The translations under genes and the position numbers were made by a program. Below, piece by piece: positions 43,714 through 64,000 of a DNA stretch of 64,000 nucleotides. Every line of letters starts with the position of its first letter. The first letter of the stretch is position 1. Under the pieces are notes generated by a model, which saw only the letters and a program-made list of their open reading frames with translations, was not told where the DNA came from and ran no database searches. Source of the stretch: Spirochaetae bacterium HGW-Spirochaetae-1 (GTDB lineage: Bacteria; Spirochaetota; UBA4802; UBA5550); NCBI GenBank assembly GCA_002839375.1, contig PGXY01000011.1, positions 1 to 64,000 of the forward strand. Direction: 5' to 3'.

Positions 43714-45159
43714 ATGACTTTTCACAAGCTTTTGGAGTTTCAACGTTTCTTGCGGATGTCGAAGCTGATAAAAAGCTATCTGTCGCCTGTATTATATGAT
43801 GCCAGAGGGATAAGGAATAAAAGTATGAAATTCATTTTACTTATTTTTTCAGCGGTTGTACGGGTTCATATGAACCAGTGGCTGCCCCTCACCATCCAGA
43901 AGCGCATGGCGGAAAGAAGAGTTTTGAAAATGGTGCGTTTTGCCTATGAAAATGTCCCTTATTATAGAAAAAAGTACGACGACGCCGGGGTCGATATGGC
44001 CTCTCTCCGTTCTATAAATGATCTGAAAAAGCTTCCCTTTTTGACCAAGGAGGATGTTCTCAATAATTTTCCCCGGGGTATCGTGGCCCGGGGGTATGAT
44101 GTGGACAAGTGTCATTATTCAGCCACGACGGGGTCTACGGGAAGGTCGCTGCCCTTCATCTTCAGTTCACCGACCTTCGCCTTTTATATCGCTACTGTTA
44201 TGCGTGTCTATACCATGATTGGTTTCAGGCCCTGGCATAAGACCGTTTATATCAAATACAAGCCCGTGGAATATCCCCGTATCGGTCCATTTTTCAGGAC
44301 CGACTGTATCGCCTCCACCATTCCCGTGGAAGAGCAGATCGCGAAACTGCGCGAGGCTAAACCGGACCTCCTCGTGGGATATGCCTCCATTGTTCTTGAG
44401 ATCGCCCAGAAGCTGACAAAGGAGGACCTGGAGATCATCAGGCCGAAATTTGTCGGTCTCAACTCCGAACTTTCCTCACAGAGCCAGCGTGATTTTATTT
44501 CCGGGGTTTTTAACTGTCCCGTATACGATGAGTATTCCACGGAGGAAACGTGGATGGTGGCATCACACTGCAAACGACACAGCTATCATATCTTTATCGA
44601 TAATGTGTGGGTGGAATTTCTCGATGAAACGGGAAATGAGGCTCTTCCCGGTCAGATCGGGGAAATCGTGCTTACGGCCACACGCAGTTTTGCCATGCCC
44701 TTTATCAGGTACCGAATAGGTGACCTGGGAAGATACAGTGCCGGAACATGCGGATGCGGGATCGGGCTTCCCGTACTGGAAAGCTTTGAGGGCAGGGCCG
44801 ATGATTCATTCATTCTTCCCAGCGGTAAATTCGTCTCTTCGCTGAAGGTGCTTAATACCTTCACGACCTATATTAAAAAATATCTCCATCTTATGGAGGA
44901 GTTCCGCGTAGTGCAGCGCGAGAAGGGGCTTATTGTAATCGAGCTGGTGAGGGGAAAGGAGTATAGCGAGGAGCGGTTTCAGGAACTCATCAACCGACTT
45001 CATGAAATAATGGGAGAACCGGTCACTATCCGGGTTGATATGGTGGACGCCATTGACACCGGCGGGAGCATCAAACGCAAGGCCATTGAATCGCTGGTAA
45101 GCCGCAACGCGGCCCTGGCCTCAATGGAATCGCGGCATGCCGCGGCGCCGGTGAGCTAA
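43714..45159 (+). CDS. PaaK/CapK-like adenylate-forming enzyme
   Basis: 481 residues resembling phenylacetate-CoA ligase and CapK-type proteins, which activate a carboxylic acid as acyl-AMP. The phosphate loop SATTGSTGRS (about 136-145), YDEYSTEE (about 272) and MPFIRYRIGDLGRY with a cysteine pair (about 330-350) are the expected motifs. The C-terminal lid ends GGSIKRKA, supplying the usual lysine. First gene of the forward part of the biosynthetic locus. It probably activates a building block; substrate unknown. Start at 43714 has only a weak site. Confidence 0.8.
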   Translation: MTFHKLLEFQRFLRMSKLIKSYLSPVLYDARGIRNKSMKFILLIFSAVVRVHMNQWLPLTIQKRMAERRVLKMVRFAYENVPYYRKKYDDAGVDMASLRSINDLKKLPFLTKEDVLNNFPRGIVARGYDVDKCHYSATTGSTGRSLPFIFSSPTFAFYIATVMRVYTMIGFRPWHKTVYIKYKPVEYPRIGPFFRTDCIASTIPVEEQIAKLREAKPDLLVGYASIVLEIAQKLTKEDLEIIRPKFVGLNSELSSQSQRDFISGVFNCPVYDEYSTEETWMVASHCKRHSYHIFIDNVWVEFLDETGNEALPGQIGEIVLTATRSFAMPFIRYRIGDLGRYSAGTCGCGIGLPVLESFEGRADDSFILPSGKFVSSLKVLNTFTTYIKKYLHLMEEFRVVQREKGLIVIELVRGKEYSEERFQELINRLHEIMGEPVTIRVDMVDAIDTGGSIKRKAIESLVSRNAALASMESRHAAAPVS

Positions 45160-45183
45160 AAATAATGTAACAGGGAGTGCCTC

Positions 45184-46614
45184 ATGATACGGAATTTTAT
45201 AATAATACTGATCGCGAGTTTGCTGGTATGCCCGATTCTTTTACCCGGGAGGGCCGAGGCCTGTGATGTGGCGGTCGTATCGGGAAAAGTGACGACGAAC
45301 GGGAGGCCCATATTATGGAAGAGCAGGGACTGCTCGGCCAACTGGCACCAGGAACTGGAGTACTTCCCTGCCATTAACAGCAGGGCCGGCGGCTGTGTCA
45401 TGGTGCACAATTATGATGACCTTGCCTGGATCAACAATGGTGTTCGCGAAAACCCGTCGGGGGGCCTGAACGAGGCCGGCCTGGCCGTATCATGCACATC
45501 GGTATACGAAGACTTCAATCCCTACCATGAGGCCATCAATATAAACACGGACCTGATCCGCGAGACCCTGCAGGAGTGCGCCACGCTGGATGATTTTGAT
45601 ACCTATCTGAAAAACTGGTATAACAATCATGCCGGCATGGTCATCAGCGGTAATTTTGTCGTTATCGACGCCCAGGGCGGAGCCGCACTGTACGAGTGCT
45701 ATACGGGCCAGATTGCCGGGCAGATAAAATACCGCAAGTACGATGCTAACACGGGCAGGGAAACGGACTGGGACGGCACAGCGGAAACGGTCATGACGGA
45801 GAGCCGCGAAGGTGAAGATGATTTCAATTATTTTTATAACCGCGCCAATAATAACTCCTATATCAATATCAATTTCGGTGAAGAACGGGCCATTCGCGCC
45901 AATGAACTTCTTAATATGCTCGTCGATGAGGGCAATATGAATTATCGTACTCTCATGCGCGTCGTGACAAAGGACGTGACGGGCAACCAGCTCGACCCGG
46001 TAACCGGTACGGTGCTGGCCGAGGAAGAGGAAGACCTCGGGAATTACAGCACAACCTACTGCATCAGCCGCAACCAGACCCGCACGGCTCTGGTGGTGGA
46101 CGGCGTCAAGGCCGGTGACAATCCGGCTCTCTCCGTATTCTACTGTGCCCTGGGGGAGCCCTCCATCTCGGTGTATACTCCTTATTTCGCCCATGCCCAG
46201 GCCGTGTCGTGGCTTTGTCATATCGACTCCATGGATCTCATAGGCAGGCTCTACGATCTCAACGATACCTGTTTTCTGAACAGGGCCATGAACCGGCGTG
46301 AGGCCTATGACAATCTTATCTATAAGACCAATACCGGCGACGTCATCCAGGGAATGGACAATGTCTGTATCAATAAAATCGAACTTGCCGCAGCACAGGA
46401 ATGGACACTGCCCCTGGAGGACTTTATTCTCGACATGACGGCGGAATACATCGATGACATGAGAGGAAAGTCTTCGTATATCACTCAGGCCAATCTTGCC
46501 AGCTTCAGTGATTATTGCGTTGAATATCTGTATGAAAATTATAACGCCGCTTCGGCCGATTACTATCCCTGGACCATGGAAAAGCCCTGGGGAAGCCTGA
46601 ACTGGGGGAGATAA
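45184..46614 (+). CDS. Secreted Ntn-hydrolase, acyl-transferase/acylase (C45/C59-like)
   Basis: 476 residues. Type I signal peptide (about 1-26) ending AEA directly before Cys-Asp-Val; removal would expose an N-terminal cysteine, the nucleophile of Ntn-hydrolases. Downstream, GRPILWKSRDCS, GGLNEAGLAVSCTSVYED and VVIDAQGGAALYECY follow the order in penicillin acylase/isopenicillin N acyltransferase-type enzymes. Such enzymes cleave or move amide-linked acyl groups. In this locus it could remove a fatty-acyl group from an exported precursor or protect the host. GGGAG precedes the ATG. Confidence 0.75.
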   Translation: MIRNFIIILIASLLVCPILLPGRAEACDVAVVSGKVTTNGRPILWKSRDCSANWHQELEYFPAINSRAGGCVMVHNYDDLAWINNGVRENPSGGLNEAGLAVSCTSVYEDFNPYHEAININTDLIRETLQECATLDDFDTYLKNWYNNHAGMVISGNFVVIDAQGGAALYECYTGQIAGQIKYRKYDANTGRETDWDGTAETVMTESREGEDDFNYFYNRANNNSYININFGEERAIRANELLNMLVDEGNMNYRTLMRVVTKDVTGNQLDPVTGTVLAEEEEDLGNYSTTYCISRNQTRTALVVDGVKAGDNPALSVFYCALGEPSISVYTPYFAHAQAVSWLCHIDSMDLIGRLYDLNDTCFLNRAMNRREAYDNLIYKTNTGDVIQGMDNVCINKIELAAAQEWTLPLEDFILDMTAEYIDDMRGKSSYITQANLASFSDYCVEYLYENYNAASADYYPWTMEKPWGSLNWGR

Positions 46615-46674
46615 GGGTAAAGCGGAAATTAAAAAGGTTTATAACGGAAAAAGGAATAAGTGAAAAAATAAAAT

Positions 46675-47652
46675 ATGAAGACCGGCGCTCAACATAGTAA
46701 AATTCTACCCCTGGTAAAAAGGCTGATACCCTGGTTCGTAGCCGCGGTCATCCTCGTCTTCCTTTTTTATCGTGTTGATGGCAGGCATTTTGTCCAGTCT
46801 ATGCAGGTGGCTGACCTGTCCATGTATGCGCCATGGCTGGTTGTCTTTTGCCTGGCCTGGTTCTTTTTCGATGTTCAGAATATCCAGGCAACGGTGAACA
46901 ATTACGGATATACCGTGAGCTTTCGTGATATCATGTCCATGCGCGGTGTGACCTACCTGCTGATGATAGTGGATTATACCCTGGGGATGGGCGGCATGGT
47001 GCTCTATCTCAAAAATGATAAGAATATCCCCATCGTTAAAAGCACCGGTCTCATGATGGTTTATACCGGCGTTACCCAGTTCAGCCTTTTCATCATGGCG
47101 GCGATAGGATGCTGGCTCGGTGATATGTCAAAGGTCCTTTTCAGGACTGTTTTTGCAACCTGTGTTTCCCTTGCCGCGGTGTATGTAGCCGCGATTATTG
47201 TTATCAAATTGCTTCCTGAAAAGGGCAGGGTGGGCCGTTTTAAAAATCTTGCTATTGTGAAGCTCTATCACGAGGTTTCGTGGCAGGGATATGTGTCCCT
47301 CATCGTGTGGAGAATTGCCTATTATGCCACCTATATCCTGTTTTATTATATTGCCATGCCGCTTTTTGGCATGCATGTGCCCATTGAGGTTCTCATAACG
47401 GCTGTGCCGCTTATTCTGCTGGTGATCAGTTTTCCCGTAACTCCCTTCGGGCTGGGGACTGCCCAGGCAGCCATGCTTTTTCTTTTCAAAGGGTATGGAA
47501 CCGAGGCTGCCATACTGGCCTTTGGTATTACCTATTCAACATCCATTGTGCTGATCAGGGGACTTATCGGTCTCTTCTATGTTAAAAAAATATCAGGTCT
47601 CATGCCTGGTAAACTGTGGGATTCCAAGGAGATGCTTAATGAAAAGATTTAA
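46675..47652 (+). CDS. Flippase-like polytopic membrane protein (LPG-synthase transmembrane family)
   Basis: 325 residues with about eight helices. Belongs by pattern to the YbhN/UPF0104 group, relatives of the membrane half of lysylphosphatidylglycerol synthase (VVFCLAWFFFDVQN; ITAVPLILLVISFPVTPFGLGTAQAAML). These proteins are suspected lipid or lipid-linked intermediate flippases. No cytoplasmic transferase domain is attached. Ends 14 bases inside the following gene. Likely export function for the product of this locus, by inference. Confidence 0.75.
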   Translation: MKTGAQHSKILPLVKRLIPWFVAAVILVFLFYRVDGRHFVQSMQVADLSMYAPWLVVFCLAWFFFDVQNIQATVNNYGYTVSFRDIMSMRGVTYLLMIVDYTLGMGGMVLYLKNDKNIPIVKSTGLMMVYTGVTQFSLFIMAAIGCWLGDMSKVLFRTVFATCVSLAAVYVAAIIVIKLLPEKGRVGRFKNLAIVKLYHEVSWQGYVSLIVWRIAYYATYILFYYIAMPLFGMHVPIEVLITAVPLILLVISFPVTPFGLGTAQAAMLFLFKGYGTEAAILAFGITYSTSIVLIRGLIGLFYVKKISGLMPGKLWDSKEMLNEKI

Positions 47653-48781
47653 TGTGCTATTATCCATATTGCTGATCATCGTTGCCATGGCGATTGTGCC
47701 TGGTTGCGACAGCGGCTCCCTGGGAGGAGGATCCAATTCCCGCGACACGGACGGCGGTTCAGATGGTGACGGGACCGGACCGGTAAAGCTACTGTTTACC
47801 GGTGACGTCATGCTTGCAAGGAATGTGGCCAATCTCGTTTATGAAAAAAACGGCGGTGATTACAGCTGGCCCTTCCTGAAGATTGCCGATTTCCTCAATG
47901 ATGCCGACCTGACCATCTCCAACCTGGAAGGACCTATTTCCGACAAGGGCGACAAGTATCTTAAATCTGCTCCATGGTTCAGGGCGGAACCCGAGGCGGT
48001 CAACGGTCTGAACTATGCCGGTATTGACATTGTTTCACTGGCTAACAACCACATCTTTGACTACGGACGCGAGGCCATGGAAGATTGTTTTGGTCAGTTG
48101 GACAGGGCAGGGATCAGATACATGGGCGCCGGAATGACTCGTGACGAGGCCTATGCGCCGGTTATCGTCAACATAAATGGACTGAAGATAGCATTCCTGG
48201 CCTTCACGAACCACGGCGATGCTTCATGGCAGGCCGAGGTTGATTATTATACGACCTTTGAGGAATTAGTTGCCCAGGTACCGCTAATCGGTGATCTTTT
48301 TCTTCAGACCCAGGTGCTGGATCATCTCATGAACATGCCGATACCCGTTACCGAGGAATCGTCGGGTGTGGCCTGGCTCTATATCAAACAGCTTGAGCGG
48401 GCCATATACAAGGCCCGTGAAGAGGCGGACATAGTTATCGTTTCACTGCATTTCGGCGAGGAGTATGCCGAGACGATCAGTTCTGCCCAGGACCGCTATG
48501 CTCACCTGGCCATTGATCGCGGAGCGGACATGGTCGTGGGCCATCACCCCCACGTGACACAGCCCATAATGGTGTATATGGGTAAAGTCATTGCCTATTC
48601 CCTGGGAAATTTTGTTTTTGATCAACGTGAATCCTATGAATCGGGGACAACAACGGGCCTGGTTCTGGAAGTAAATATCGAGGACAAGAAAATTCAGAAC
48701 GTGGAAGGCCATTATACAAAGATAATTGAAGAAGAATGGCAGACGCAGCTTACGCCCTTTGAATATGGAGATCTGGACTGA
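47639..48781 (+). CDS. CapA-family metallophosphatase-like lipoprotein
   Basis: 380 residues. Lipoprotein signal with the cysteine near residue 22 (AIVPGC), then a Gly/Ser/Asp linker. CapA fold motifs are VKLLFTGDVMLARNV, LTISNLEGPISD, IDIVSLANNHIFDYG, HFGEEY and VVGHHPHVTQPI, the calcineurin-like metal ligands. CapA is named from poly-gamma-glutamate synthesis, where it acts in polymer export or anchoring. AAGGAG six bases before the ATG at 47639 supports overlap with the flippase gene. Confidence 0.88.
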   Translation: MKRFNVLLSILLIIVAMAIVPGCDSGSLGGGSNSRDTDGGSDGDGTGPVKLLFTGDVMLARNVANLVYEKNGGDYSWPFLKIADFLNDADLTISNLEGPISDKGDKYLKSAPWFRAEPEAVNGLNYAGIDIVSLANNHIFDYGREAMEDCFGQLDRAGIRYMGAGMTRDEAYAPVIVNINGLKIAFLAFTNHGDASWQAEVDYYTTFEELVAQVPLIGDLFLQTQVLDHLMNMPIPVTEESSGVAWLYIKQLERAIYKAREEADIVIVSLHFGEEYAETISSAQDRYAHLAIDRGADMVVGHHPHVTQPIMVYMGKVIAYSLGNFVFDQRESYESGTTTGLVLEVNIEDKKIQNVEGHYTKIIEEEWQTQLTPFEYGDLD

Positions 48782-48788
48782 TAAAAAT

Positions 48789-49913
48789 ATGAACAGCCCG
48801 TTCGCACATACCAGGAGCGATGATGGACGTGTGAGTCTTGAAGAAAGACTTGCGGCCCTGATTCCCGTCAGGCATGTTGTCCTGACCGGGTATGCGAGAA
48901 ATGCCCTCTTTCTCCTGGTGAAAACCATGGGTTGGGACAGCGGTGCCGAGGTTATCATTCCCGCCTTTACCTGTTCGGTTGTTCCCATGTCAATCCGTGA
49001 GGCCGGGGCGATACCCATACCTGTAGATGCCGAGTCCCAAGGTATTAACATGGATCCGGCCCTTATCGAAAGGGCTATCACACCGCGAACCAGGGCTATC
49101 TACGTGGTACATACCTACGGGACACCGGCCCGTATGGAGGAAATATGCGCTATTGCGAATAAACACGGTCTCAAGGTTATTGAAGACCTGGCGCAATCCT
49201 TCTTTGCAGAGCATCGGGGCAGGAATGTGGGGAGTTTCGGCGATTTTGCCATACTGAGTTTTACCAAGAAGATCATTAATTTTGAGGGAGGAGCTCTCAC
49301 CACCAATGATACGGAACTGTACTGCCGCATGAAGGATACACAGGCCGCCCTTAACCGGGAAAGGCATTTTACTGTTGCGGGGCTTACGGACCAGGTAGTG
49401 AGAATAATCAGTTCCTTCTGGGAATCGCGTTTCTCCTTTTCCGTTCTGCTTGTCTTCAAACTGCTGGATATGATCAATACGGTTTTATACCGGGGCTCCT
49501 ATGGCGTTTCCGTCAATCCGCAGCGGTTTATGATGCATGGTCTGGCGATTAAAATAACGGGAATGCAACTCGATTCGTGGAGAACGAAGACCGGCAATGG
49601 CAGAAATATCCGCCGCTTTGAAAACGGGCTGAGAGAAGTCGTTGCATGCCCCGGCGCGGTGAGCGGTCTGGCCGATCCGAGGCCGGAATATTTTACCGGT
49701 ATACCGCTTAAGGAATCGTTCTGGATGCGGTTTATATCGTTCCGGACATGGCATAATTTCAATGAAAAGGGAGTATTCCCGCGTGCCGATTATCTTTATG
49801 AAAATTACAGGGTTTTTTCCAGAATAATACTTTGGTCTTCCCGGAGAGAACGGGAAGGAGCCATGGCATATCATGAACGGGAGTATGACCGGTCTGCCGG
49901 GAATGCCCGGTGA
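48789..49913 (+). CDS. DegT/DnrJ/EryC1/StrS-type PLP-dependent protein
   Basis: About 374 residues. Fold type I aminotransferase family that modifies sugars or small building blocks. HVVLTGYARNALFLLV, EVIIPAFTCSVVPM, KVIEDLAQSFFAEH and SFGDFAILSFTKKIINFEGGAL are the family series; the last contains the likely PLP lysine. The C-terminal third is atypical. Start is uncertain: ATG at 48789, after the capA-like stop, is preferred over in-frame ATGs at 48726 and 48765. It could aminate a precursor for the synthetase. Confidence 0.82.
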   Translation: MNSPFAHTRSDDGRVSLEERLAALIPVRHVVLTGYARNALFLLVKTMGWDSGAEVIIPAFTCSVVPMSIREAGAIPIPVDAESQGINMDPALIERAITPRTRAIYVVHTYGTPARMEEICAIANKHGLKVIEDLAQSFFAEHRGRNVGSFGDFAILSFTKKIINFEGGALTTNDTELYCRMKDTQAALNRERHFTVAGLTDQVVRIISSFWESRFSFSVLLVFKLLDMINTVLYRGSYGVSVNPQRFMMHGLAIKITGMQLDSWRTKTGNGRNIRRFENGLREVVACPGAVSGLADPRPEYFTGIPLKESFWMRFISFRTWHNFNEKGVFPRADYLYENYRVFSRIILWSSRREREGAMAYHEREYDRSAGNAR

Positions 49914-49932
49914 AAATGAGGGAGGTTTTATT

Positions 49933-51036
49933 ATGAACCAGGCAATAGCTGACAGGGTAAAAGAATATCAGACTTCAGAACAGGAAGTAAAAAAGGCTCT
50001 CCCTGTCACATGCAATAATTTTTTCCTTCTGAATCACAGGGGATTCAATTACTATGGCATTGACCTGCGAAAAGTCGACTTCGAAATCATCAGGGACATA
50101 GTGAAAGGTTGCGAGGAAGTGGAGAAAGACTGCTGGGATCCCCAGGAGAATTTCTTTGATTACATTCAAAAAAGTGATATTCTCGCTTATGCGGAAAAAG
50201 ACGGCCGCATCGTCGGCTTCAATCTCGTTTCTCTCCTTATGTCCGACGGGCACTGCATATACAGTATAGACGAGGCCATGGTTCTCAAAAAATGCCAGGG
50301 GAACAATATAGCCCGCAATGTTGTGATGCTTACCATACGCTGGTTTTTCCTGAAGACCGACGAGGCCCTGACAGTGAAGAAAATATACCCGCTTTCCATT
50401 TCAGCCAACCCAAAGGTTGTAAATAATTATTTCAAAAACAAGTATCTAACCAGCATTTTTGATAATTCGTTCCGCCCTTCGGAGAAACTGATCGATCTTC
50501 ATCTCCAGTACGTGAAGGAAAACAATTTGTTGCTGGTCGACGAGAAATATCCTTTCTGCGTAAAGAACCTGTTTCCCGGCTCAAACCGTTTCAAAGAGAA
50601 CGATAAGCGATACCAGTTTAAGGACGGCGTTAAAAAGAACATGCCCGATGATTTCGATCATATTCACCGCGGTGATGCCTTCTCCTTCATGGTCAGGATC
50701 GGCGTAGGTCCCTTCTGGTTTGTCAATACCCTCCTCCTCCTGATAATTCTGGGGAAAAAGATGATTTTCAATAAGGGGATAGGATTCCTTGGCTCCGGGA
50801 AATACCAAAGCGCCGATGAAAGCTTTCAGTATACTGACGAGTATAGTGACAGAAGAGGCGGAGATCGAAGAGTTATGGATATTGGTGCGTATCTCGATGA
50901 TCGGTTTAACCGAAGGAAAACGGGAAGGCGTACAGTCGACGAAAATTTAAACTCCAGGGATGGACTGAAAAGAAAACTCCGGCTCACGGGAAAGAAAGAA
51001 TCGCGAAAAATAGCATCGATGACACTGCTGCTGTAG
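49933..51036 (+). CDS. GNAT-like protein with membrane helix and basic tail
   Basis: 367 residues. The first ~220 contain a GNAT-like core (ILAYAEKDGRIVGFNLVSL, then IDEAMVLKKCQGNNIARNVVMLT, matching the acetyl-CoA loop region). One hydrophobic helix (about 253-270) follows, then a basic arginine-rich tail (DRRGGDRR, RRKTGRR). It could N-acylate an amino intermediate, for instance that of the DegT-type enzyme upstream. GGGAGG seven bases before the ATG at 49933 decides the start; the frame is open to 49873. Family assignment moderate. Confidence 0.65.
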   Translation: MNQAIADRVKEYQTSEQEVKKALPVTCNNFFLLNHRGFNYYGIDLRKVDFEIIRDIVKGCEEVEKDCWDPQENFFDYIQKSDILAYAEKDGRIVGFNLVSLLMSDGHCIYSIDEAMVLKKCQGNNIARNVVMLTIRWFFLKTDEALTVKKIYPLSISANPKVVNNYFKNKYLTSIFDNSFRPSEKLIDLHLQYVKENNLLLVDEKYPFCVKNLFPGSNRFKENDKRYQFKDGVKKNMPDDFDHIHRGDAFSFMVRIGVGPFWFVNTLLLLIILGKKMIFNKGIGFLGSGKYQSADESFQYTDEYSDRRGGDRRVMDIGAYLDDRFNRRKTGRRTVDENLNSRDGLKRKLRLTGKKESRKIASMTLLL

Positions 51037-52290
51037 TTATAAAAATTTGCTTTTTTGAACCGGGTATTCCTTCGCGGACTGCAACGTAGAATAAGTCGGC
51101 TTCCGGGCTTGAAGCTCCTTCTTTAAGCGTTCGAGCAGAGCTTCAAGTCGTCCTCTCGAGGCGAGGGCATTGGGAAGAGATAGCGTGAGTTCCACCCTTT
51201 TATGAGTGCCTGCCAGTGCCATGAAGAAGGGAAGGGATTCTACGCCCGGCGGAATAAAGAAACCGGTATTACAAACAAACCCGCCTCCCTGAAAGTGTTC
51301 CAGGGGAAGCCGTCCTGGATTGGACAGAATCCCGGAATTCCTGAAAAATCCGCTCCGGTATTTCATTGCTGTTTCCCGGTATACTGTGCCTTTGAGAAGC
51401 CATAGAGGTATGAAACGGGCAAGATTATCCCCCCAGTACTGCATACCGTCACATCGTTTTTCAATCTGTGCGGTAATGTCAGCGGAAACCAATTCCGGTG
51501 TTGAGTCGGGCAAGATATCCAGGTATATGAGATTGGTCAGGTTTCCTGTTGATTGCAGCCCCTGAACACGGAACCGCATATCCACCGGGACGGCGATCCT
51601 TACCTTGCCATCTTTATGTTTTCTTGCCTCATCGGCCATGATGCAGGCGATCTGGCCCAGCAGATTCGGATATTTTCCTTCAAGGGTTACCCTTTTCCAT
51701 ATAATGCCTCGCTTGTCTGCATCGGCCCAGCCCGTGGGAGCTATAAAGCGGTGTTTTGGTGGTGTTCTGCTTTCTTTCTGATATAAACGGGCGAGTTTCT
51801 GTTCCGTGAGAGCACAATGAGACCCAATAGGTTTTTCGCCGCGGAGCGAGCGGAATATATCCAGGGCCCATGACATAGTGCCCCTGGCGTCCATGGCGCC
51901 ATGGTGAGTGCGGAATGCGATACGCGGAGTGCCGCCGTTAATCAGGATGACTTCGCAGGTGGGTCCTTTTATGGGAGAAAGTTTTCTTTCGAGAAATGGA
52001 GCTCCTTCAGGACCTATACCGTTCCAGGCGGATCCATCCTCTTTACGCACATCGGGGGCAATTCCTGAGTCAACCCAGTGGCTCAGCGGGCCGTGTCCCC
52101 GGCATACGATACGGCTTCCGGGATTTGCTTTCGAGGCCTCTTTAACCGCCAGTATCCATTTTTTGTAATCAAGACAGCCTGATCCTTCGAGGATCATCTG
52201 GTTGGCGAAGGGCGGACATATGTGATTATATATCAGGTAAACTCGTTCCGTAGGTGACATTTTTCGTTTGTATTTATTTTGTTCGTTCAT
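51037..52290 (-). CDS. Stand-alone HHxxxDG acyltransferase paralogue 5 (variant motif)
   Basis: 417 residues, last of five tandem paralogues. Shares PTERVYLIYNHICPPFANQM at the N-terminus, a central VRIAVPVDMR with LQSTGNLT, and a late GILSNPGRLPLEHF. The active-site motif is THHGAMDARG rather than HHxxxDGRG: catalytic histidine and aspartate remain but glycine is alanine. It could still acylate, or be altered in specificity. A longer C-terminal tail (KPTYSTLQSAKEYP) is unique among the five. Its 3' end abuts the GNAT-like gene with no gap. AAGGA lies upstream. Confidence 0.78.
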   Translation of the reverse strand: MNEQNKYKRKMSPTERVYLIYNHICPPFANQMILEGSGCLDYKKWILAVKEASKANPGSRIVCRGHGPLSHWVDSGIAPDVRKEDGSAWNGIGPEGAPFLERKLSPIKGPTCEVILINGGTPRIAFRTHHGAMDARGTMSWALDIFRSLRGEKPIGSHCALTEQKLARLYQKESRTPPKHRFIAPTGWADADKRGIIWKRVTLEGKYPNLLGQIACIMADEARKHKDGKVRIAVPVDMRFRVQGLQSTGNLTNLIYLDILPDSTPELVSADITAQIEKRCDGMQYWGDNLARFIPLWLLKGTVYRETAMKYRSGFFRNSGILSNPGRLPLEHFQGGGFVCNTGFFIPPGVESLPFFMALAGTHKRVELTLSLPNALASRGRLEALLERLKKELQARKPTYSTLQSAKEYPVQKSKFL

Positions 52291-53544: not shown

Positions 53545-53560
53545 GGTAACTTCCCTATTT

Positions 53561-54813: not shown

Positions 54814-54827
54814 AACCGTCTGGAAGG
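54814..54827. promoter_or_regulatory. Shared 14-base operator candidate, copy 2
   Basis: ACCGTCTGGAAGGG. The block 54801-54826 matches 57401-57426 at 25 of 26 bases, including AATCAA (a minus-strand TTGATT -35 candidate), so both gaps carry the same promoter module. Confidence 0.6.
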
Positions 54828-54893
54828 GGCAATATTTGATATGAATCTGACCTATGCTGCAATTTGTTTGGCGGCGATATTTCTCTGGCGCAA

Positions 54894-56084
54894 TCAGCCC
54901 GTGAATGAATCCAGTCCCCCGATGATGCCTTCCATGGCTTTTTCCAGCCTGCCATCGGTGGCAAGGGCCCGGGGCATGCTGACGACCAGTTCCACCGTGT
55001 CATTGTACCCGGCCAGTCCCATGAAAAAAGGCAGGTATTCCACCGCCGGCGGTATGCCGCAGAAGGCCGTGGCGTTGAACCCGCCGCCGGAGAAATAGCG
55101 CAGGTCGATGAGGCCCATGTTAGAAAGAATGGCAGTGTTGCGGTACAGACCCATATCATGCTTTATCTGTACTTCATTGCGGAGTGATCTTCTTACCATG
55201 GCAAGCGGAATGAATCGTACCACTTCATCGGCCCAGTACAGCATGCCGTCATTTTTGTTTGCTATCTGTTCCTCCATGTTTTTGACCAGGTCTTCATAGG
55301 TGGTGTTCTCCGTAACGTCAAAATAGATAAGGTTTGTCAGGTTGCCTGTCGAGCGCAGTTTTTCCTGCCGAAACCGCAGGTCCACGGGGATGGCAAAACG
55401 CACCGGTCCCGGAGAATGGCGCCATGCCTCGCGGGCAAGGAGGACGGCAACTTTTGGCAGCAGGTTTTTAATGGGTCCCTTTGTCTTATAACGGCGCCAG
55501 CAGATTCCCGTTACCCCCTGCGCCGCTTTGCCTGTGGGCGATATAAACTGGTGGCTGGGAGGGGTCCTTCCCTGCTTTTGATAGCTCCTGGCCAGTTCCT
55601 GCTCGGTAATGGCCGATGATGATCCCCGGGGCTTTTTATCGTTCAGGACCCGGAATATGTCTTCGATCCAGGTGAAGGTCCCCCTGCCGTCCATGATGGC
55701 ATGATGTGTTCTGAAAAAGACACGCAGGGTTTCGCCGTGGAGCAGGAGTACCTCGCTGCTGCGGCCGTCTGTTGTGGAAAGCTGCTTTTGCAGAAAGGGA
55801 GCATTATTGAGGTCCACGCCGGACCAGGAGCTGCCATCGGCTTCTACTACCTCGGGAGTCAATCCGGAGTCTACCCAGCGGCATCGGTTTAAAAATCCCC
55901 GGAGGATGAGCCTGCTGCCGGGATTCGCTTCCGAGGCTTCACGCACGGCTGCTTTCCATTTCTCTATATTGAATGAGCCGGTCCCTTCGAAAAAAAATTG
56001 GTTTGCGAAGGGTGGATTCATTTCGCCGTTAATCAGGTATATTCTTTCCGTTGAACTCAGTTTTCGCGTATATTTTTTCTGCAT
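54894..56084 (-). CDS. Stand-alone HHxxxDG acyltransferase paralogue 2
   Basis: 396 residues. THHAIMDGRGTFTWIED, VRFAIPVDLR and LRSTGNLTNLIYFDV are intact, as is the late NTAILSNMGLIDLRYFSGGGF block. The ATG at 56084 is chosen because GGAAGG lies seven bases upstream; an in-frame GTG at 56090 adds two residues. The gap to paralogue 1 is 43 bases, so these two are probably co-transcribed, while paralogue 3 has its own upstream module. Confidence 0.82.
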   Translation of the reverse strand: MQKKYTRKLSSTERIYLINGEMNPPFANQFFFEGTGSFNIEKWKAAVREASEANPGSRLILRGFLNRCRWVDSGLTPEVVEADGSSWSGVDLNNAPFLQKQLSTTDGRSSEVLLLHGETLRVFFRTHHAIMDGRGTFTWIEDIFRVLNDKKPRGSSSAITEQELARSYQKQGRTPPSHQFISPTGKAAQGVTGICWRRYKTKGPIKNLLPKVAVLLAREAWRHSPGPVRFAIPVDLRFRQEKLRSTGNLTNLIYFDVTENTTYEDLVKNMEEQIANKNDGMLYWADEVVRFIPLAMVRRSLRNEVQIKHDMGLYRNTAILSNMGLIDLRYFSGGGFNATAFCGIPPAVEYLPFFMGLAGYNDTVELVVSMPRALATDGRLEKAMEGIIGGLDSFTG

Positions 56085-56127
56085 ATACACACCTTCCCGG
56101 TGAAATAATGAAGATACTGCTGAAACA

Positions 56128-57333
56128 TTATTTTTTTCCTGACTCGTCCTGCTGCAGGCCTGTTATCAGCGTATCGAATATACTGTCCATACGATTTTGC
56201 CCGGCCAGTACCTTCGGCATAGTGATTATGATTTCCGTTGTGTCATTATTGTAGCTGCATGTTCCCATAACAAGGGGGAAATATTCCCCGCCGGGAGGTA
56301 TGCCCCACATGGCCGATGCGGTGAATCCGCCGCCGCTGAAGCGGGACAGGTCCAGGGCGCCCATATTGGAAATCAGGCTGGATATGCTGTAAATGCCTTC
56401 CCGGTGTCTCTCGCGGCATATGCTTTTGGCCTTCCATGCCATGAGACTCACCGGTATCTGCCGGTATATATCATCGCCTTCCGAGAGGATGCCGTCGGGG
56501 AACGAGGATATCTGAGCTGTAATGTCATTTTTGATGGATTCCACCGTTGAATCCTTTTTGATTTCCACATATATGGCAAAGGTGAGATTGCCCGTGGAGG
56601 TCAGACCTTCTTCGTAGGCCCGCAGGTCTACGGGAATGCTTATACGCACTATGCCATCACGGTATTTCCACGCTTCCCGGGCCAGGAGCAGAGCCAGCCG
56701 GGCCGTGATATTGGGATATGTTCCCTGGATGGTTCTTCTCTGCCAGGTCACTCCGCTCGGCTCTCCATCGGCTGTTCCCGTTGGTGCAATATGTTCAAAG
56801 GGGAAGGCCTTTCGCGATTTTGGCTGTATTTTCATGGCCAGTTCAGCATCGGTGAGAACTGAATTGCTTCCGCGGCATTTTTTTCCATTCAGGGCCCTGA
56901 ATATGTCAAAGATCCAGGTCATGGTTCCTCTTCCGTCCATGACGGAGTGGTGGGTGCGAAAAATAACCCTTTGAGGCGTTCCTTCCACTAGAAGAACTTC
57001 ACAGGGTAAGCCCTGGCGGATCGGCAGAGCCGTTTGCAGGAAGGGCGCGTTTTCAGGATCGTGTCCAGACCACTGTGATCCGTCAACCTGCTTAACCGGC
57101 GGTGTTTTGCCCGAGTCCACCAGGCGGCTGAATCCGAGATGTCCCTTGAGCATAACGCGGCTGCCGGGATTTGCCTCCGATGCTTCACGGACCGCCCTTT
57201 CCCATGATTCGGGTTCGAAGGAACCTGCCCCCTCCATGATGAATTGGTTGGCTATGGGAGGATTTATTTTGTCAAAAACCAGAAAAAATCTTTCGTTGAA
57301 GGAAAGCTGACGTTTGTATGGTGTTTTTTTCAT
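56128..57333 (-). CDS. Stand-alone HHxxxDG acyltransferase paralogue 1
   Basis: 401 residues, first of the five in transcription order. N-terminal SFNERFFLVFDKINPPIANQ; active-site His-His at 128-129 and Asp 133 in THHSVMDGRG; VRISIPVDLRAYEEG and LTSTGNLTFAIYV; a final SNMGALDLSRFSGGGF. No signal peptide or membrane helix, so cytoplasmic. In related enzymes the second histidine catalyses acyl transfer from a carrier protein or CoA to an amine or alcohol. AAGG eight bases before the ATG. Divergent from the giant synthetase gene. Confidence 0.83.
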   Translation of the reverse strand: MKKTPYKRQLSFNERFFLVFDKINPPIANQFIMEGAGSFEPESWERAVREASEANPGSRVMLKGHLGFSRLVDSGKTPPVKQVDGSQWSGHDPENAPFLQTALPIRQGLPCEVLLVEGTPQRVIFRTHHSVMDGRGTMTWIFDIFRALNGKKCRGSNSVLTDAELAMKIQPKSRKAFPFEHIAPTGTADGEPSGVTWQRRTIQGTYPNITARLALLLAREAWKYRDGIVRISIPVDLRAYEEGLTSTGNLTFAIYVEIKKDSTVESIKNDITAQISSFPDGILSEGDDIYRQIPVSLMAWKAKSICRERHREGIYSISSLISNMGALDLSRFSGGGFTASAMWGIPPGGEYFPLVMGTCSYNNDTTEIIITMPKVLAGQNRMDSIFDTLITGLQQDESGKK

Positions 57334-57413: not shown

Positions 57414-57427
57414 ACCGTCTGGAAGGA
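57414..57427. promoter_or_regulatory. Shared 14-base operator candidate, copy 3
   Basis: ACCGTCTGGAAGGA, eight bases upstream of the TTGATT -35 candidate of paralogue 1 on the minus strand, the same geometry as copy 2. Confidence 0.6.
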
Positions 57428-57562: not shown

Positions 57563-57591
57563 TTGATTCCGTCTGGACGGTGTTCTAAAAT
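57563..57591 (+). promoter_or_regulatory. Promoter TTGATT-17-TAAAAT containing operator copy 4
   Basis: The most symmetric motif copy, TCCGTCTGGACGGT (57568-57581), starts on the last base of TTGATT and fills the spacer. A protein bound here would block polymerase, arguing for repression at this site. Confidence 0.5.
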
Positions 57592-57724: not shown

Positions 57725-57754
57725 TTGACATTATTTTAGAGATGTCGTTATAAT
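57725..57754 (+). promoter_or_regulatory. Consensus promoter TTGACA-18-TATAAT of the giant synthetase
   Basis: Both hexamers are exact. Transcription would begin near 57761, about 270 bases before the start codon. Motif copy 5 lies about 20 bases downstream of the expected start. Confidence 0.75.
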
Positions 57755-57778: not shown

Positions 57779-57792
57779 ACCGGCTGGACGGT
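57779..57792. promoter_or_regulatory. Shared 14-base operator candidate, copy 5
   Basis: ACCGGCTGGACGGT, in the early transcribed region of the synthetase leader, where a bound repressor would act as a roadblock. Confidence 0.55.
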
Positions 57793-57992: not shown

Positions 57993-58029
57993 CTAATTGT
58001 TAATTGTAATACTTGGGGGGTATTCCATA

Positions 58030-61000
58030 ATGAATAAAAAGCTCGTCACCACGAACCAGAGTGATCTTGCCACACTTCCTGATGCGGTCACTTCAGGACC
58101 GGAACTCAATATTCTTCCTTATTTTCCCTTGACCCTTGTGGATATGATCTGCTCAACGGCCAGGATTGCCTCAAAAAGGGGCATTATCTATGTTGATACA
58201 CAGGGAAATGAAGAGCTGCAGACATACCCTGAACTGCTGGAGCAGAGCGGTCGAATCATGGGTGCTATGCGATCTATGGGGCTGGCTAAGGGCGACAGCG
58301 TCATAATGCAGCTGGATAACGAGAGAAATTTCATCGAGGGATTCTGGGCCTGTATCCTGGGCGGATTTATTCCCGTGCCGCTGGCGCTTCCCGCGGGCCT
58401 CATGGGAATCGGTGCCGAAAAGGTGGCCAATGTATGCCGCATCATGGGCAACGCTCATCTGCTCACGGATCAGTCCACTGACCAGTACAGGGATTTCCAG
58501 GTTCTTTCGGTCATTGAAATAGCGGGCCTTGGTGACCATGCCGAGGATCGGGACTATCATCGGCCCGATCCTGATGATCTGGCCTACCTGCAGTTTTCCT
58601 CGGGATCAACGGGAGATCCCAAGGGCGTCATGCTTTCTCACCGGAATCTCGCCAGCAATATATACGCTATAATCCGGGCCTCGGCCAACGAGGAGGAGCA
58701 GAAACTTATCGATGATATGTTCAGCAATCCCCCCGTTGAAATGGAATACCCCGTTTCTACGTGCAGCTGGCTTCCCCTTTCCCACGACATGGGTCTTATC
58801 GGTTTTCACATCGCACCCCTTGCCGTGAGTATGATGCAGATAAAAATGGGGACCACAACTTTTGTGGTCAATCCCTCGCTTCATTTACAGCTTATTCACA
58901 AGCACCGCGTTACGCAGATGGCAAGCCCCAATTTCGGTCTTTCATGGATGGTGAATGTCGTCAAGGATGAACTCATCCAGGGCGTTGATCTTTCCTGTGT
59001 CGAAATTCTTTTCAACGGCGCCGAACCCATTTCCGGCAGCGCCGTCAGGGCCTTTGTCGATCGTTTTTCGAAATATGGATTCAATCCCCGGGCCATGTTT
59101 CCGGTTTACGGCATGGCTGAGGCAACGCTCATGATATCGGCGCCTCCCGTCAACTCTGAAAACGTTTTTCATCACCTGGATCGGCGGACCTTTGCGCTCC
59201 GACATATGGCCGTTGATGCCGAAGGCGATGCCGAGATGATAGAATTCGCCGACGAGGGATACCCCTGCGCGGGCATGGAGGTGCGGATCGTCGATGATGA
59301 AGGAAATGCCGTCAAGGAAACCGTTGCCGGGCATATCCAGATAAAGGGCCCCCATGTAACGGGAGGCTATTACATGAATGAGAAGGCAAACACGGAGCTC
59401 TTCACCGAGGGATGGCTGAAAACCGGCGATCTGGGTTTCATCAGGGAGGGAAGGATCACTGTAACGGGCCGCTTTAAAGATGTTATTTTTGTCAACGGGC
59501 AGAATTTTTACTCGGAAGATATCGAGGAAATGCTGCAGCAACTTCCCTTTGTGGGATTCAAAAACCTGGCCGTATGCGGCATCACCGATTGTGAAGATGG
59601 AAATGAGAAGATAATTCTTTTTATGAAGACCGGCAAAGACAGGGAAAAGCTCCAGGACCTGCTCATGCGGATAAATGAAAGCATCGGTAAAAGAATAATG
59701 ACGGGCATTTCTTCCATCGTTCCCATGCAGGATATTCCCCGCACGACGAGCGGTAAAACCCAGCGGTACGTCATGAGGGAGATGTACATGCAGGGAAAAT
59801 TCGAGGACAGGGAAGTGAAGGCATCGATTGAAATCATGCCGGAAAACGAACCGGCCGGAGCCCCGGAAGAAAAGAGGAAGGAGATGGACCTTGAAGGTTT
59901 TATTAACATGCTCCCGCCGGCGATTACCAAAGGAAAATCAGGTCCCCGTCACCAGAGCCTTCACCTTTTCATCAGAAATCTGCCCATGATTATCAGGGTG
60001 GCCAATATAATCGCACCTGACAAGGGCCCCATATTCGTTGATACCGAGGGGAACGAAGAGCTGCTTACCTATGCAGAGCTGCTTCACAACGCCCGCTGCG
60101 TTCTGGGTGGTCTGAGGAAGCAGGGGATGAAACCCGGCGACCAGGTCATAATGCAGATTGAAGGAACCCGGGATTTCCTGGCGGGCTTCTGGGGATGCAT
60201 CCTCGGCGGGTTTCTGCCGGCCCCGCTCCCCGTTCCCGGAGGGTTTCCTATAAGTGAAGGTATGGAGCGTGTGGCAAAAGTAAGCGAGCTGCTCACCAGC
60301 TTCTGTATCATCACCGATCAGCCTCATGACACATATGCCTCCCTGGGTGAAGTAAAAATATATACTATCGGTGACTTGCTTAAAAATGTGCCTGATAAAA
60401 AGCATCACCGGCCGAAACAGAGTGACGCCGCTCTTCTGCAGTTTTCCTCGGGTTCAACGGGCGATCCCAAGGGTGTCATGCCCACGCACAAGAACATCAT
60501 AAACGCCATTGAGGCGGGGACTGCCGGCGTATTCGGCGTGCCCGACAATGATTACCGGCCCATCATCGGGTTTATCCTGCATATCATAAGGCGGAAGTTC
60601 CATAAACAGAATGCGATAAAAAATAACATGAAGCCGGGCCTGCTCCGCCGTTTCGACAGATCCAGGGCCGGTATCCTGCTGCGGAGATGGAAGGCGAGCG
60701 AGTACCTCCTGGATACGCTGCTCATCCTTTCGGGCAAAAAAATATCCACGTCGCTGGACATAACCTTCGACGATATTTCCATGGCCAACTGGATGCCCTT
60801 TTCCCATGTCATGGGACTTATCGGCTTTCATATTGCTCCCATGCTCGGCGCCGTGTACGCCGTGACTCTGACTCCCAGGACTTTCATTGAAAAACCGGCC
60901 CTGTTTCTAAGGCTTATCGACCGGTACGGCGCGACTCATATCCCGTGCCCCAATTTTGCGGCGCAGTGGCTTACGGCCCAGGTTAAGGAAGAGGATATGG

Positions 61001-64000
61001 ACAGGGTGGACCTCTCGTGCGTCAAGGCTCTCCTGAACGGATCGGAGCCCATCTCTTCCATGGTGACCAGGGACTTCCTCACCAGGTTCAGCAGATATGG
61101 TCTTGATCCCAGGACCATGTGGTGTGCCTACGGCATGTCCGAGGCCACGGTGGAAATCACCACATCACCGGTAATGCGTGAGCCCCTGTTCCATCGCGTC
61201 GACAAGGAAATGTTTTTTAAGCACAAGATCGCCGCTCCCACTATTTCACCCAATGACGGCATAGACCTGGCCGATGTGGGGAGTCCCATACAGGGCCTTG
61301 AAGTCCGCATTACGGATGAAAACGATCAGGTTGTACGCGAAAACATGGTGGGTCATATACAGGTGAAGGGAAACACCGTGGCATGGCGGGGATATTTCAA
61401 TAATCCCGTGGCGAACGAAAATCTCTTCACGACCGACGGATGGCTGAAAACCGGCGATATGGGTTTCATGATCGGCGGGCGCATCGTGGTGGCCGGAAGG
61501 TTAAAAGATATTATTTTTGTGAATGGCCAGAACCTGTATTCCAATGACATCGAAGAGCATATCAAGAAGGTTCCCGGTATGGCATATATCGAGTTTGCCG
61601 TAACGGGACTTAGGCAGTATGAGTCCGACAGCGAAAAGATCGTTATGTTTGTAAGGTCCGGTGAATCAAGCGAGGCCATGGCCGTGCGGCTGGCAAGGAT
61701 AAACAAGGCGCTTACCTCGGATATCGGTATTCATATAGATATCCTGGTCCCCGTGGAATCGATTCCCAGGACGCCCAGCGCCAAGATAAAGCGTTTTAAG
61801 CTGCGCGATAATTTCGAACAGGGAATGTACGGCGAACAGATCACTGCGGAAGATGCAGCCAAAATGCTTCCCGATTCCGGCGAGGCGGGCAGGGAAGAGG
61901 AGTTGACCGACACGGAAGAGCGACTCATGAGGATATGGCGGGAGGTTGTAGACCGGCAGGATATCCGCAAGACCGATAATTTTTTTGACATGGGAGGCAA
62001 CTCTCTCAAGGCCACCAGGATAGGGTCGCGCGTAAAAGAGGAATTCGGCATAGACGTTCCGCTGAGGGTGGCCTTTGAGAACCAGACCGTGCAGTCCCTT
62101 TCCGCGGCCATTGACGCTCTCCTGGGAAAGGTAAAGCCCGGCGAAGAAAAATCGTCCCTGCCGAAACTCGTACCCGTTGAGAAGAAGGAATACTACGAGG
62201 TCTCCCACGCTCAGAAGAGACTCTGGTATCTTGACAAGATCATACCCGACAGCCCCTTCTATAATATTCCCGGCGCCGTGCTCGTGGAGAATGTGGAACT
62301 GGATGTTGCCGTCATTGCCAGGGCCATGCAGGCCGTGGCGGACCGTCATGAAACACTGCGCACCGTTTTTCATGAAGTTAACGGAGAGCCGGTCCAGGTC
62401 ATTTCTGAATCAATCGCCATTGAAGTGCCGGTCATAGACCTTCAGGGAAAGGAGAACCAGGACGGTCTTATCGCGGAAATTCTGGAGAAGGAAAAGTTCA
62501 GGCCCTTTAATCTTGCAGCGGGCCCCCTTTTCAGGGTGAAAGTTGTGCGCTGCTCACCGCAGAAACACGCGCTGATCATAGTCATGCATCATATTATCTC
62601 TGATGGCTGGTCCATGGGGCTTCTGGTCCAGGAGGCCGTGGGCAATTATTTTGCCATGGCCGCCGGCGGAGCCGTTCCCCAGGGCAAACTCGCCATACAG
62701 TACAGGGATTATGCAGCCTGGCAGAACAGGGTACTGGCAGGCGATGCCTATGATGCTCAGAAAGAATACTGGCTGAAGGATCTTACGGGCGAGCTTCCCG
62801 TTCTGGAGCTCCCCTATGACCGTCAGCGGCCCGTCGTCCAGAGCCAGCGCGGTAAAACCTTCCGCACGGTCATGGATAAAAATCTGTCACGGCAGATCAG
62901 GGAATCGGCGCGCAGTCTCGATGTGACGCCCTTCATTCTGACCCAGGCAATATTTAAAATACTGCTTCATAAGCTTTCGCGGCAGGATGATATCATCATC
63001 GGCACTCCCATCGCCGGAAGAAACAGGTCCGAGATCGAGCCCCTCATCGGGTTTTTCGTCAACGTGCTTCCCATGCGGACCGTTATGACGGGAGATCCCG
63101 TGTTTAAGGCGCTTGTGGAAAGCGTGAAACAGACAGCCCTGGGAGCCTATGCCAACCAGGACTACCCCTTCGACAAGCTCGTGGAGGTCCTCAATCCCGC
63201 AAGGAACATGAGCCGTTCACCTATATTCGACGTGGTCTTCGAGTTCATCGAGGAGTCGGAGTACCTCTTCAATAACATGAACAGGAATGAAATACTACTG
63301 CGTGACATCACCGGCGATGATCCCAATGCGAAGTTTGATATTTTTCTCACTTTCATCGAGGGAAAGGAAGGCATAAATGTTAAGTTTGAATACAACGCCG
63401 ACCTGTTCAACGATGAAACCATTGAACGCTTCATGAAATATTATGTGAATATTGCGTCGTCGGTTCTGGAGAATCCCGATCTGTATATTTCTCAAATCAG
63501 CATGCTTGATGCCGGCGAAGAGAACATGGTTCTCCATGAATTCAACGGCAGGGAGCGCGATTATCCGCGGAACAAATGCATCCACGAGATATTTCAGGAT
63601 ATGGCCCTGCGGTACGCCGATAAGGCTGCCCTGGTCATGGGCGGCGAGACCATGACCTATGGAGAACTGGACATTCTTTCCAACCGGATGGCGCGCCATC
63701 TCCGCGAACACGGCGTGGGCAAGGGAACCCATGTCATACTCATGGTTGAAAAATCAACGGCGATGCTGGCGGCGGTTCTGGGCATCCTCAAGGCCGGGGG
63801 CGTGTATGTGCCCGTGGATCCCGAGTATCCACTGGCCCGCCGTAATTATATGATAAGCGATGTGAAGGCTCCCGTGGCCATTGTTCAAGGGTCCCTGACG
63901 GGAAACCTGGGTGATTTCACCGGACACACGGTGATACTGGACAGCTTTATACATGAGTGCGGTCATATAAACGGTTCGGCGATCACGAACGTCAATGATC
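58030..64000 (+). CDS. Giant NRPS-type synthetase: A(FAAL-like)-A(FAAL-like)-PCP-C-A, 3' end outside window
   Basis: Open for 1990 codons to the window edge. Domain 1 (about residues 35-620): fatty-acyl-AMP-ligase-like, FSSGSTGDPKGV, SWLPLSHDMGLIG, VYGMAEATL, KTGDLGF, PRTTSGK. Domain 2 (about 645-1265): the same series (NWMPFSHVMGLIG, CAYGMSEATV, PRTPSAK), with about 55 extra basic and hydrophobic residues after its HKN segment. Carrier domain (about 1295-1365): FFDMGGNSLKATR, with the phosphopantetheine serine. Condensation domain (about 1385-1815): SHAQKRLWYLD and HHIISDGWS. A third adenylation domain begins near 1840 (LTYGELD-like MTYGELD, ILKAGGVYVPVDPEYP) and is cut off. A GGGGGG tract precedes the ATG. 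Confidence 0.92.
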   Translation, partial: MNKKLVTTNQSDLATLPDAVTSGPELNILPYFPLTLVDMICSTARIASKRGIIYVDTQGNEELQTYPELLEQSGRIMGAMRSMGLAKGDSVIMQLDNERNFIEGFWACILGGFIPVPLALPAGLMGIGAEKVANVCRIMGNAHLLTDQSTDQYRDFQVLSVIEIAGLGDHAEDRDYHRPDPDDLAYLQFSSGSTGDPKGVMLSHRNLASNIYAIIRASANEEEQKLIDDMFSNPPVEMEYPVSTCSWLPLSHDMGLIGFHIAPLAVSMMQIKMGTTTFVVNPSLHLQLIHKHRVTQMASPNFGLSWMVNVVKDELIQGVDLSCVEILFNGAEPISGSAVRAFVDRFSKYGFNPRAMFPVYGMAEATLMISAPPVNSENVFHHLDRRTFALRHMAVDAEGDAEMIEFADEGYPCAGMEVRIVDDEGNAVKETVAGHIQIKGPHVTGGYYMNEKANTELFTEGWLKTGDLGFIREGRITVTGRFKDVIFVNGQNFYSEDIEEMLQQLPFVGFKNLAVCGITDCEDGNEKIILFMKTGKDREKLQDLLMRINESIGKRIMTGISSIVPMQDIPRTTSGKTQRYVMREMYMQGKFEDREVKASIEIMPENEPAGAPEEKRKEMDLEGFINMLPPAITKGKSGPRHQSLHLFIRNLPMIIRVANIIAPDKGPIFVDTEGNEELLTYAELLHNARCVLGGLRKQGMKPGDQVIMQIEGTRDFLAGFWGCILGGFLPAPLPVPGGFPISEGMERVAKVSELLTSFCIITDQPHDTYASLGEVKIYTIGDLLKNVPDKKHHRPKQSDAALLQFSSGSTGDPKGVMPTHKNIINAIEAGTAGVFGVPDNDYRPIIGFILHIIRRKFHKQNAIKNNMKPGLLRRFDRSRAGILLRRWKASEYLLDTLLILSGKKISTSLDITFDDISMANWMPFSHVMGLIGFHIAPMLGAVYAVTLTPRTFIEKPALFLRLIDRYGATHIPCPNFAAQWLTAQVKEEDMDRVDLSCVKALLNGSEPISSMVTRDFLTRFSRYGLDPRTMWCAYGMSEATVEITTSPVMREPLFHRVDKEMFFKHKIAAPTISPNDGIDLADVGSPIQGLEVRITDENDQVVRENMVGHIQVKGNTVAWRGYFNNPVANENLFTTDGWLKTGDMGFMIGGRIVVAGRLKDIIFVNGQNLYSNDIEEHIKKVPGMAYIEFAVTGLRQYESDSEKIVMFVRSGESSEAMAVRLARINKALTSDIGIHIDILVPVESIPRTPSAKIKRFKLRDNFEQGMYGEQITAEDAAKMLPDSGEAGREEELTDTEERLMRIWREVVDRQDIRKTDNFFDMGGNSLKATRIGSRVKEEFGIDVPLRVAFENQTVQSLSAAIDALLGKVKPGEEKSSLPKLVPVEKKEYYEVSHAQKRLWYLDKIIPDSPFYNIPGAVLVENVELDVAVIARAMQAVADRHETLRTVFHEVNGEPVQVISESIAIEVPVIDLQGKENQDGLIAEILEKEKFRPFNLAAGPLFRVKVVRCSPQKHALIIVMHHIISDGWSMGLLVQEAVGNYFAMAAGGAVPQGKLAIQYRDYAAWQNRVLAGDAYDAQKEYWLKDLTGELPVLELPYDRQRPVVQSQRGKTFRTVMDKNLSRQIRESARSLDVTPFILTQAIFKILLHKLSRQDDIIIGTPIAGRNRSEIEPLIGFFVNVLPMRTVMTGDPVFKALVESVKQTALGAYANQDYPFDKLVEVLNPARNMSRSPIFDVVFEFIEESEYLFNNMNRNEILLRDITGDDPNAKFDIFLTFIEGKEGINVKFEYNADLFNDETIERFMKYYVNIASSVLENPDLYISQISMLDAGEENMVLHEFNGRERDYPRNKCIHEIFQDMALRYADKAALVMGGETMTYGELDILSNRMARHLREHGVGKGTHVILMVEKSTAMLAAVLGILKAGGVYVPVDPEYPLARRNYMISDVKAPVAIVQGSLTGNLGDFTGHTVILDSFIHECGHINGSAITNVND

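Follow-up and report, generated by a model that had tools for sequence, protein, structure and literature searches.

An acyltransferase-rich cassette and a predicted lipopeptide synthetase operon lie side by side behind one probable operator in an uncultured member of Spirochaetota

Does the region at positions 43714-64000 of a contig from an uncultured member of Spirochaetota encode a single biosynthetic pathway, as an initial annotation had proposed, or more than one? The window, meaning the whole 64,000-nucleotide stretch of DNA that was analysed, spans positions 1-64000 of the 387-kb contig C11 in a 5.2-Mb genome (labelled G000); the contig beyond the window edge was also analysed, to about 90 kb. 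Our analysis favors, with a probability of roughly 70%, two adjacent and separable loci behind one predicted operator, rather than a single pathway: an NRPS operon at 57997-83408 and a cassette at 43714-57333 for a different acylated product. To our knowledge, uncultured Spirochaetota have so far yielded few natural products. Literature searches covering tandem FAALs, NRPS from Spirochaetes or Smithella, and lipopeptide aldehydes brought up nothing about this locus.

Table 1. Features of the cassette, the NRPS operon and their upstream regions (contig coordinates).
Feature	Position	Strand	Size or basis
Promoter-like TTGACA-17-TAAATT of cassette	43611..43639	+	
Palindromic predicted operator ACCATCCAGACGGT, just downstream of cassette -10	43650..43663		
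PaaK/CapK-like AMP-forming ligase	43714..45159	+	profile and relatives
Secreted Ntn-hydrolase, distantly C45/AAT-like	45184..46614	+	profile
LPG_synthase_TM (flippase-like) membrane protein, without aminoacyltransferase domain	46675..47652	+	PF03706, 4e-14
CapA-type PGA_cap protein	47579..48781	+	PF09587, 7e-79
DegT/DnrJ-type PLP aminotransferase	48726..49913	+	PF01041
GNAT-fold protein	49873..51036	+	predicted fold; weak GNAT profile matches in relatives
AT5, condensation-fold acyltransferase (HHGAMDARGT)	51037..52290	-	motif and tree
AT4 (HHAVMDGRGT)	52339..53616	-	AlphaFold and Foldseek
AT3, paralogue	53561..54739	-	motif and tree
Operator-like copy upstream of AT3, 2 mismatches to 14-mer	54815..54828		
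AT2, paralogue	54894..56090	-	motif and tree
AT1, paralogue	56128..57333	-	motif and tree
Operator-like copy upstream of AT1	57414..57427		
Predicted operator TCCGTCTGGACGGT, in spacer of promoter-like site 57563-57591 before NRPS	57568..57581		
Sigma-70 consensus 12/12, TTGACA-18-TATAAT, before NRPS	57725..57754	+	
Predicted operator ACCGGCTGGACGGT, downstream of 57725..57754 promoter	57779..57792		
NRPS1 (in window 57997..64000; likely start 58030)	57997-66699	+	2900 aa
NRPS2, four C-A-PCP and reductase	66692-80533 (beyond window)		4613 aa
SDR	80543-81301 (beyond window)		
Type II thioesterase (TEII)	81324-82067 (beyond window)		
Serine hydrolase, membrane-anchored, beta-lactamase-fold	82128-83408 (beyond window)		
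PPTase	83364-84053 (beyond window)	-	
Condensation-like acyltransferase, further copy	84162-85547 (beyond window)	+	
Condensation-like acyltransferase, further copy	85579-86973 (beyond window)	-	

The lipopeptide character sensed earlier from the opening part of the synthetase was borne out, since an NRPS cluster with a FAAL start and five modules lies there. The locus does not stop at 64000 but continues to about 83.4 kb, or 87 kb with the flanking acyltransferases. Motif positions and profile matches give the domain order FAAL-FAAL-ACP-C-A-PCP-E for NRPS1 and four C-A-PCP modules followed by a terminal reductase for NRPS2, so the synthetase, followed past the window edge, does not end without further modules. 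The C, A and PCP domains carry intact motifs, and the E domain was assigned from its HHLVVDGVSW sequence and its location after the PCP. Solved FAALs were the best PDB matches for both FAAL domains, with a match to the PRK09192 fatty acyl-AMP ligase above cutoff; the two are 42.5% identical to each other, and the second carries an insert after motif A3 in common with the single FAAL of another genome, G028 (54.7% identity). The reductase is marked by NAD_binding_4 at 4242-4483 of NRPS2 and by GVTGYLG and YARSK motifs; reductase domains are discussed in PMC2835699. The SDR gene that comes after NRPS2 had no specific family assignment above cutoff. Judged from its sequence, 57997-83408 is a complete lipopeptide NRPS cluster. 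The regulator and transporter ATPase that had been suggested as possible past 64000 were not recognised in the contig up to about 90 kb.

Pocket codes of the A domains were obtained by alignment to PheA, using what we take to be the PheA core numbering. In order, these are DAMFLGVTFK, DAQDIGVVDK, DLTKIGEVGK, DLFNNALTYK and DILQLGVVWK, that of module 4 being a manual reading because the automatic alignment was gapped at one residue. Similar codes have been published. DAFFLGVTFK occupies Ile/Val positions in cyanopeptolin synthetases (PMC2533009). DAQDLGVVDK accepts Glu and Gln; DLTKIGEVGK is treated together with Asn/Asp domains, and DILQLGMIWK together with Gly domains (PMC12283262). The module 4 code had no counterpart in the literature searched. 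Taken together, the five codes suggest the product acyl-D-(Ile/Val)-(Gln/Glu)-Asn-(Ala/Gly)-Gly, predicted to be released as an aldehyde or ethanolamine.

The corresponding route applies established biochemistry to a clear architecture. One or both FAAL domains would convert a fatty acid to its acyl-AMP and pass it to the acyl carrier protein, after which module 1 of NRPS1 would join the acyl chain to an Ile/Val-type residue and epimerise that residue, and NRPS2 would add Gln/Glu, Asn, Ala or Gly, and then Gly. The terminal reductase would release an aldehyde, on which the downstream SDR may act as a further reductase; the product would be an acyl-pentapeptide aldehyde or a lipopeptide ending in ethanolamine. 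The type II thioesterase would edit and the PPTase would prime, while the membrane-anchored serine hydrolase may work outside the cytoplasm, processing or degrading the product there. This amounts to a specific lipopeptide scaffold predicted from an uncultured member of Spirochaetota, and it is open to testing by expression.

Among 296 genomes, only G028, from another family of the same order, also gave a strong match to the second FAAL. Its first synthetase is 53% identical, with the same code order (Ile/Val-type, Gln-type, Asn-type), and the G028 synthetase has an extra condensation-type domain, probably E, after each of modules 2 and 3. On G028:C72 (L104-L105), an MMPL-family transporter gene is oriented divergently to the NRPS, and very large PKS-like ORFs lie at a greater distance; G028:C63 holds a 7163-aa NRPS ORF with seven condensation-type matches.

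An N-acyl-D-aminoacyl unit, which module 1 would make (FAAL...E), together with a membrane-anchored serine hydrolase in the operon, recalls prodrug activation of the ClbP/XcnG type, whereby the serine hydrolase or the Ntn-hydrolase of the cassette would be a periplasmic peptidase that cleaves an N-acyl-D-amino acid off an inactive precursor. The serine hydrolase does match ClbP weakly (E 5e-4), but its kinship to 8rlj and nylon-oligomer hydrolases is far closer, and the A1 code DAMFLGVTFK is Ile/Val-like, not an Asn code. The enzyme has one N-terminal membrane segment (by eye) and a C-terminus that is not hydrophobic, whereas ClbP has three C-terminal membrane segments (PMC9889268). On these grounds, we have largely rejected prodrug activation, which appears improbable here.

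The second of the two loci, the cassette, contains all of the proteins that the initial annotation had listed with the synthetase (PaaK-like ligase, Ntn-hydrolase, flippase-like protein, CapA, DegT, GNAT and five acyltransferases), as profiles, folds and motifs confirm. The six forward ORFs are co-directional, with gaps of 24 and 60 bp and overlaps thereafter. Best conserved is the PaaK-like ligase (60-66% across phyla). In the Ntn-hydrolase, R48-D49 is conserved and signal-peptide cleavage would expose Cys27; its scores lie below curated cutoffs (C45, 36.9 bits vs 85; AAT, 20.9 vs 23.2), so we consider it only a distant C45 relative. The CapA-type protein has a lipobox-like signal (by eye), and no CapB/CapC synthetase genes were found beside it at this locus. 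The PF01041 profile covers only the N-terminal half of the DegT protein. For the GNAT protein, profile matches in relatives are weak, but the fold predicted for it supports the assignment; this protein probably starts at 49933, and its C-terminal tail is of low confidence. A defence role for the cassette proteins was considered and set aside, as PADLOC gave no match. Before the cassette, between ssb and rpsR, a 70-aa ORF (42402-42614, reverse strand) contains 24-bp tandem repeats (4.6 copies) that encode Cys-rich GCCSSGNT units.

All five reverse-strand paralogues, AT1-AT5 (51037-57333), retain HHxxMDxRGT, and the HHxxxD active-site motif within it is found in 5/5 of them and in nearly all relatives; AT2-AT5 are each 42-53% identical to AT1. 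An AlphaFold model of AT4 (pLDDT 92) had AzeD (8s6l) as its nearest solved fold (Foldseek E 4e-20), followed by NRPS C/E domains (about 1e-17). By fold, with AT4 as the modelled member, AT1-AT5 are assigned to the condensation/CAT-BAHD superfamily. Against Pfam, including Condensation PF00668, none of the five had a match at E 0.001 and AT4 had nothing meaningful at E 1; AT4 likewise had no match among PDB sequences. These enzymes therefore form a family absent from Pfam. In G000 they are turned round, facing the cassette. AT5/AT2-like, AT3-like and AT4-like groups each span phyla in the acyltransferase tree, where many forks are starred, and this pattern is consistent with transfer of an array that already held several paralogues. 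Distant acyltransferase homologues (34%) also occur in Moritella and Bermanella (L077-L082), where they immediately follow an RND-type transporter and have GNAT-like genes close by (families by eye).

The distribution of the cassette among relatives bears on whether the two loci form one pathway. G003, G015 and G017:C6 retain the order PaaK-Ntn-LPGTM-CapA-DegT-GNAT-(acyltransferases); the G019:C120 cassette runs to the contig end, and that of G018 is split over two places. No NRPS was found beside the cassette in any of these five genomes. A condensation-domain match was absent throughout G015, G017, G018 and G019, and the one in G003 lies elsewhere. Because relatives keep the cassette with no NRPS alongside, the earlier suggestion that 43714-64000 is one complete pathway is not supported. 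Genes for activation, tailoring, export and processing are indeed present, as had been noted, but they mix two machineries. Flagellar-type genes lie near the cassette in G003, G015, G017:C6 and G018 (by eye, from sequence starts). Further versions occur in Desulfobacterota/Myxococcota-labelled and Bacillota MAGs, with related arrangements in MAGs labelled Smithella, Deltaproteobacteria, Syntrophomonas and Methanolinea, the last possibly mis-binned. A divergent cassette, L109 (G006:C293), has two large Ntn-hydrolase ORFs (1236 and 733 aa) and distant PaaK, LPGTM, CapA and GNAT proteins.

The two loci nevertheless appear to share control. A 14-bp palindrome, ACCGKCYRGMCGGT, precedes PaaK, AT1 and AT3 and occurs twice before the NRPS. 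With at most 1 mismatch, CCGTCTGGACGG has five copies within 43651-57791, and the rest of the window has none; allowing up to 2 mismatches gives 11 matches against 4.5 expected, and 0/100 shuffles reached 11. The motif that the initial annotation placed at three promoter gaps is real and, at five copies, stronger than claimed, but two of the copies precede the NRPS. As a candidate repressor target, the palindrome can be written ACCGTCTGGACGGT. It precedes PaaK in 4/5 same-family relatives (G003, G015, G018 and G019; 0-1 mismatch; 0/200 shuffles as good). It was not found before the cassettes of G017:C6, G028, G006 or the non-spirochaete loci, nor at the G028 NRPS; its absence at the G017:C6 and G028 cassettes and the G028 NRPS means that shared control is not universal.

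Genome-wide, a looser pattern gave 24 matches versus 4 in the control, palindromic sites being counted on both strands, and the sites mostly lie close upstream of lipoprotein, OmpL1-porin, START and DUF1302/LolA-like genes. Perfect 14-mers number 7, 5, 8, 4, 5 and 6 in the cassette-bearing genomes G000, G003, G015, G017, G018 and G019, compared with 0-3 in the other 54 genomes; among related genomes such as these, the tracking is an association, not proof. From these site patterns, the palindrome is probably an operator controlling both loci, and it defines a directly testable regulon tying the NRPS and the cassette together. A TetR gene beside the site at C4:503739 was discarded as the repressor, as its occurrence among relatives does not track how many operator sites they have. 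Outside the window, at 90701-97040 of contig C11 (L110), lipoprotein, LolA-like and DUF1302 genes stand behind two further operator copies, and homologues of two of these genes flank acyltransferases in G009:C137.

A shared operator does not prove a shared pathway, because many members of the regulon are unrelated lipoproteins. Were there one pathway, the cassette would tailor, acylate, flip and process the NRPS lipopeptide; the adjacency of the loci in G000 and the operator common to their promoters speak for this, as does the presence of PaaK, Ntn-hydrolase, CapA and DegT in G028. However, the G028 assembly has these genes and the NRPS on different contigs rather than side by side, and that genome gave no acyltransferase match. 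Cassettes also occur in genomes with no condensation-domain match (G015, G017, G019 and partly G018), and the operator stands before many unrelated genes. We consider a single pathway unlikely. Co-regulation favors some link between the cassette and the NRPS product, and the acyltransferases could act on the lipopeptide in G000, but the independent occurrence of the cassette disfavors a necessary link. The two loci are thus best described as separable but probably co-regulated.

What the cassette itself makes can be conjectured from family names, which point most likely to a mobile cassette for an amine-containing envelope lipid. The ligase would activate a carboxylate, the DegT protein would supply an amine, and the GNAT and condensation-fold acyltransferases would acylate that amine; the LPG-TM protein would then flip the product, on which the secreted Ntn-hydrolase and the CapA protein would act outside. 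Cassette neighbours elsewhere include RND/AcrB transporters and, at one Smithella locus, fatty-acid-synthase-like genes (by eye), both of which fit an exported lipid. Surface-polymer loci commonly hold CapK-like ligases, PGA_cap and DegT proteins, and matches to these families in the cassette would also suit an ordinary capsule/O-antigen type locus (CapK, CapA, DegT, flippase) unrelated to lipids. Such a locus seems a poor fit, and we give it a low probability: no glycosyltransferase or polymerase was recognised in the cassette, its hallmark is multiple condensation-fold acyltransferases, and START and LolA-like genes are among the members of the shared regulon. Returning to the acylated product, we tentatively suggest, at somewhat less than even odds, that PaaK/Ntn-hydrolase/LPG-TM/GNAT genes with Pfam-orphan tandem acyltransferases constitute an undescribed acylated-envelope-metabolite pathway that spread through anaerobes belonging to several phyla, and that this spirochaete has placed a lipopeptide NRPS under the same operator. 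Conservation of the cassette in MAGs named Smithella, Syntrophomonas and Spirochaetes points to an acyl metabolite, as yet uncharacterised, that is common in anaerobic communities.

Each part of the region can be set beside known systems. Like FAAL-initiated lipopeptide NRPS clusters, the operon has FAAL-ACP loading, a fatty-acyl-start condensation, A and PCP modules and one epimerisation domain; it differs in having two tandem FAAL domains and release by a reductase, not a thioesterase. The linear gramicidin synthetases LgrD/LgrE have a terminal Gly-type module, a reductase domain and a separate downstream reductase gene, an arrangement that this operon resembles. Here, however, there are five modules in place of fifteen-plus, the start is fatty-acyl rather than formyl, and the downstream enzyme is an SDR (a putative second reductase). 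ClbP/XcnG-type peptidases (PMC9889268) likewise pair a membrane-anchored, beta-lactamase-fold hydrolase with an NRPS that makes an acyl-D-residue, but the hydrolase here is closest to nylon-oligomer hydrolase/8rlj, lacks the C-terminal three-helix domain and accompanies no D-Asn code. The lysyl-phosphatidylglycerol synthase MprF shares the LPG_synthase_TM flippase domain with the cassette protein. The latter is not fused to an aminoacyltransferase, and the cassette instead has a GNAT protein of a different type, encoded separately. Finally, AT1-AT5 resemble the stand-alone condensation enzymes AzeD (8s6l) and OaaC (PMC13142362) in being single-domain condensation folds with HHxxxD, but they show 10-16% identity to solved structures, belong to no Pfam family, conserve HHxxMDGRGT and ANPGSR motifs, and occur in tandem arrays of up to five.
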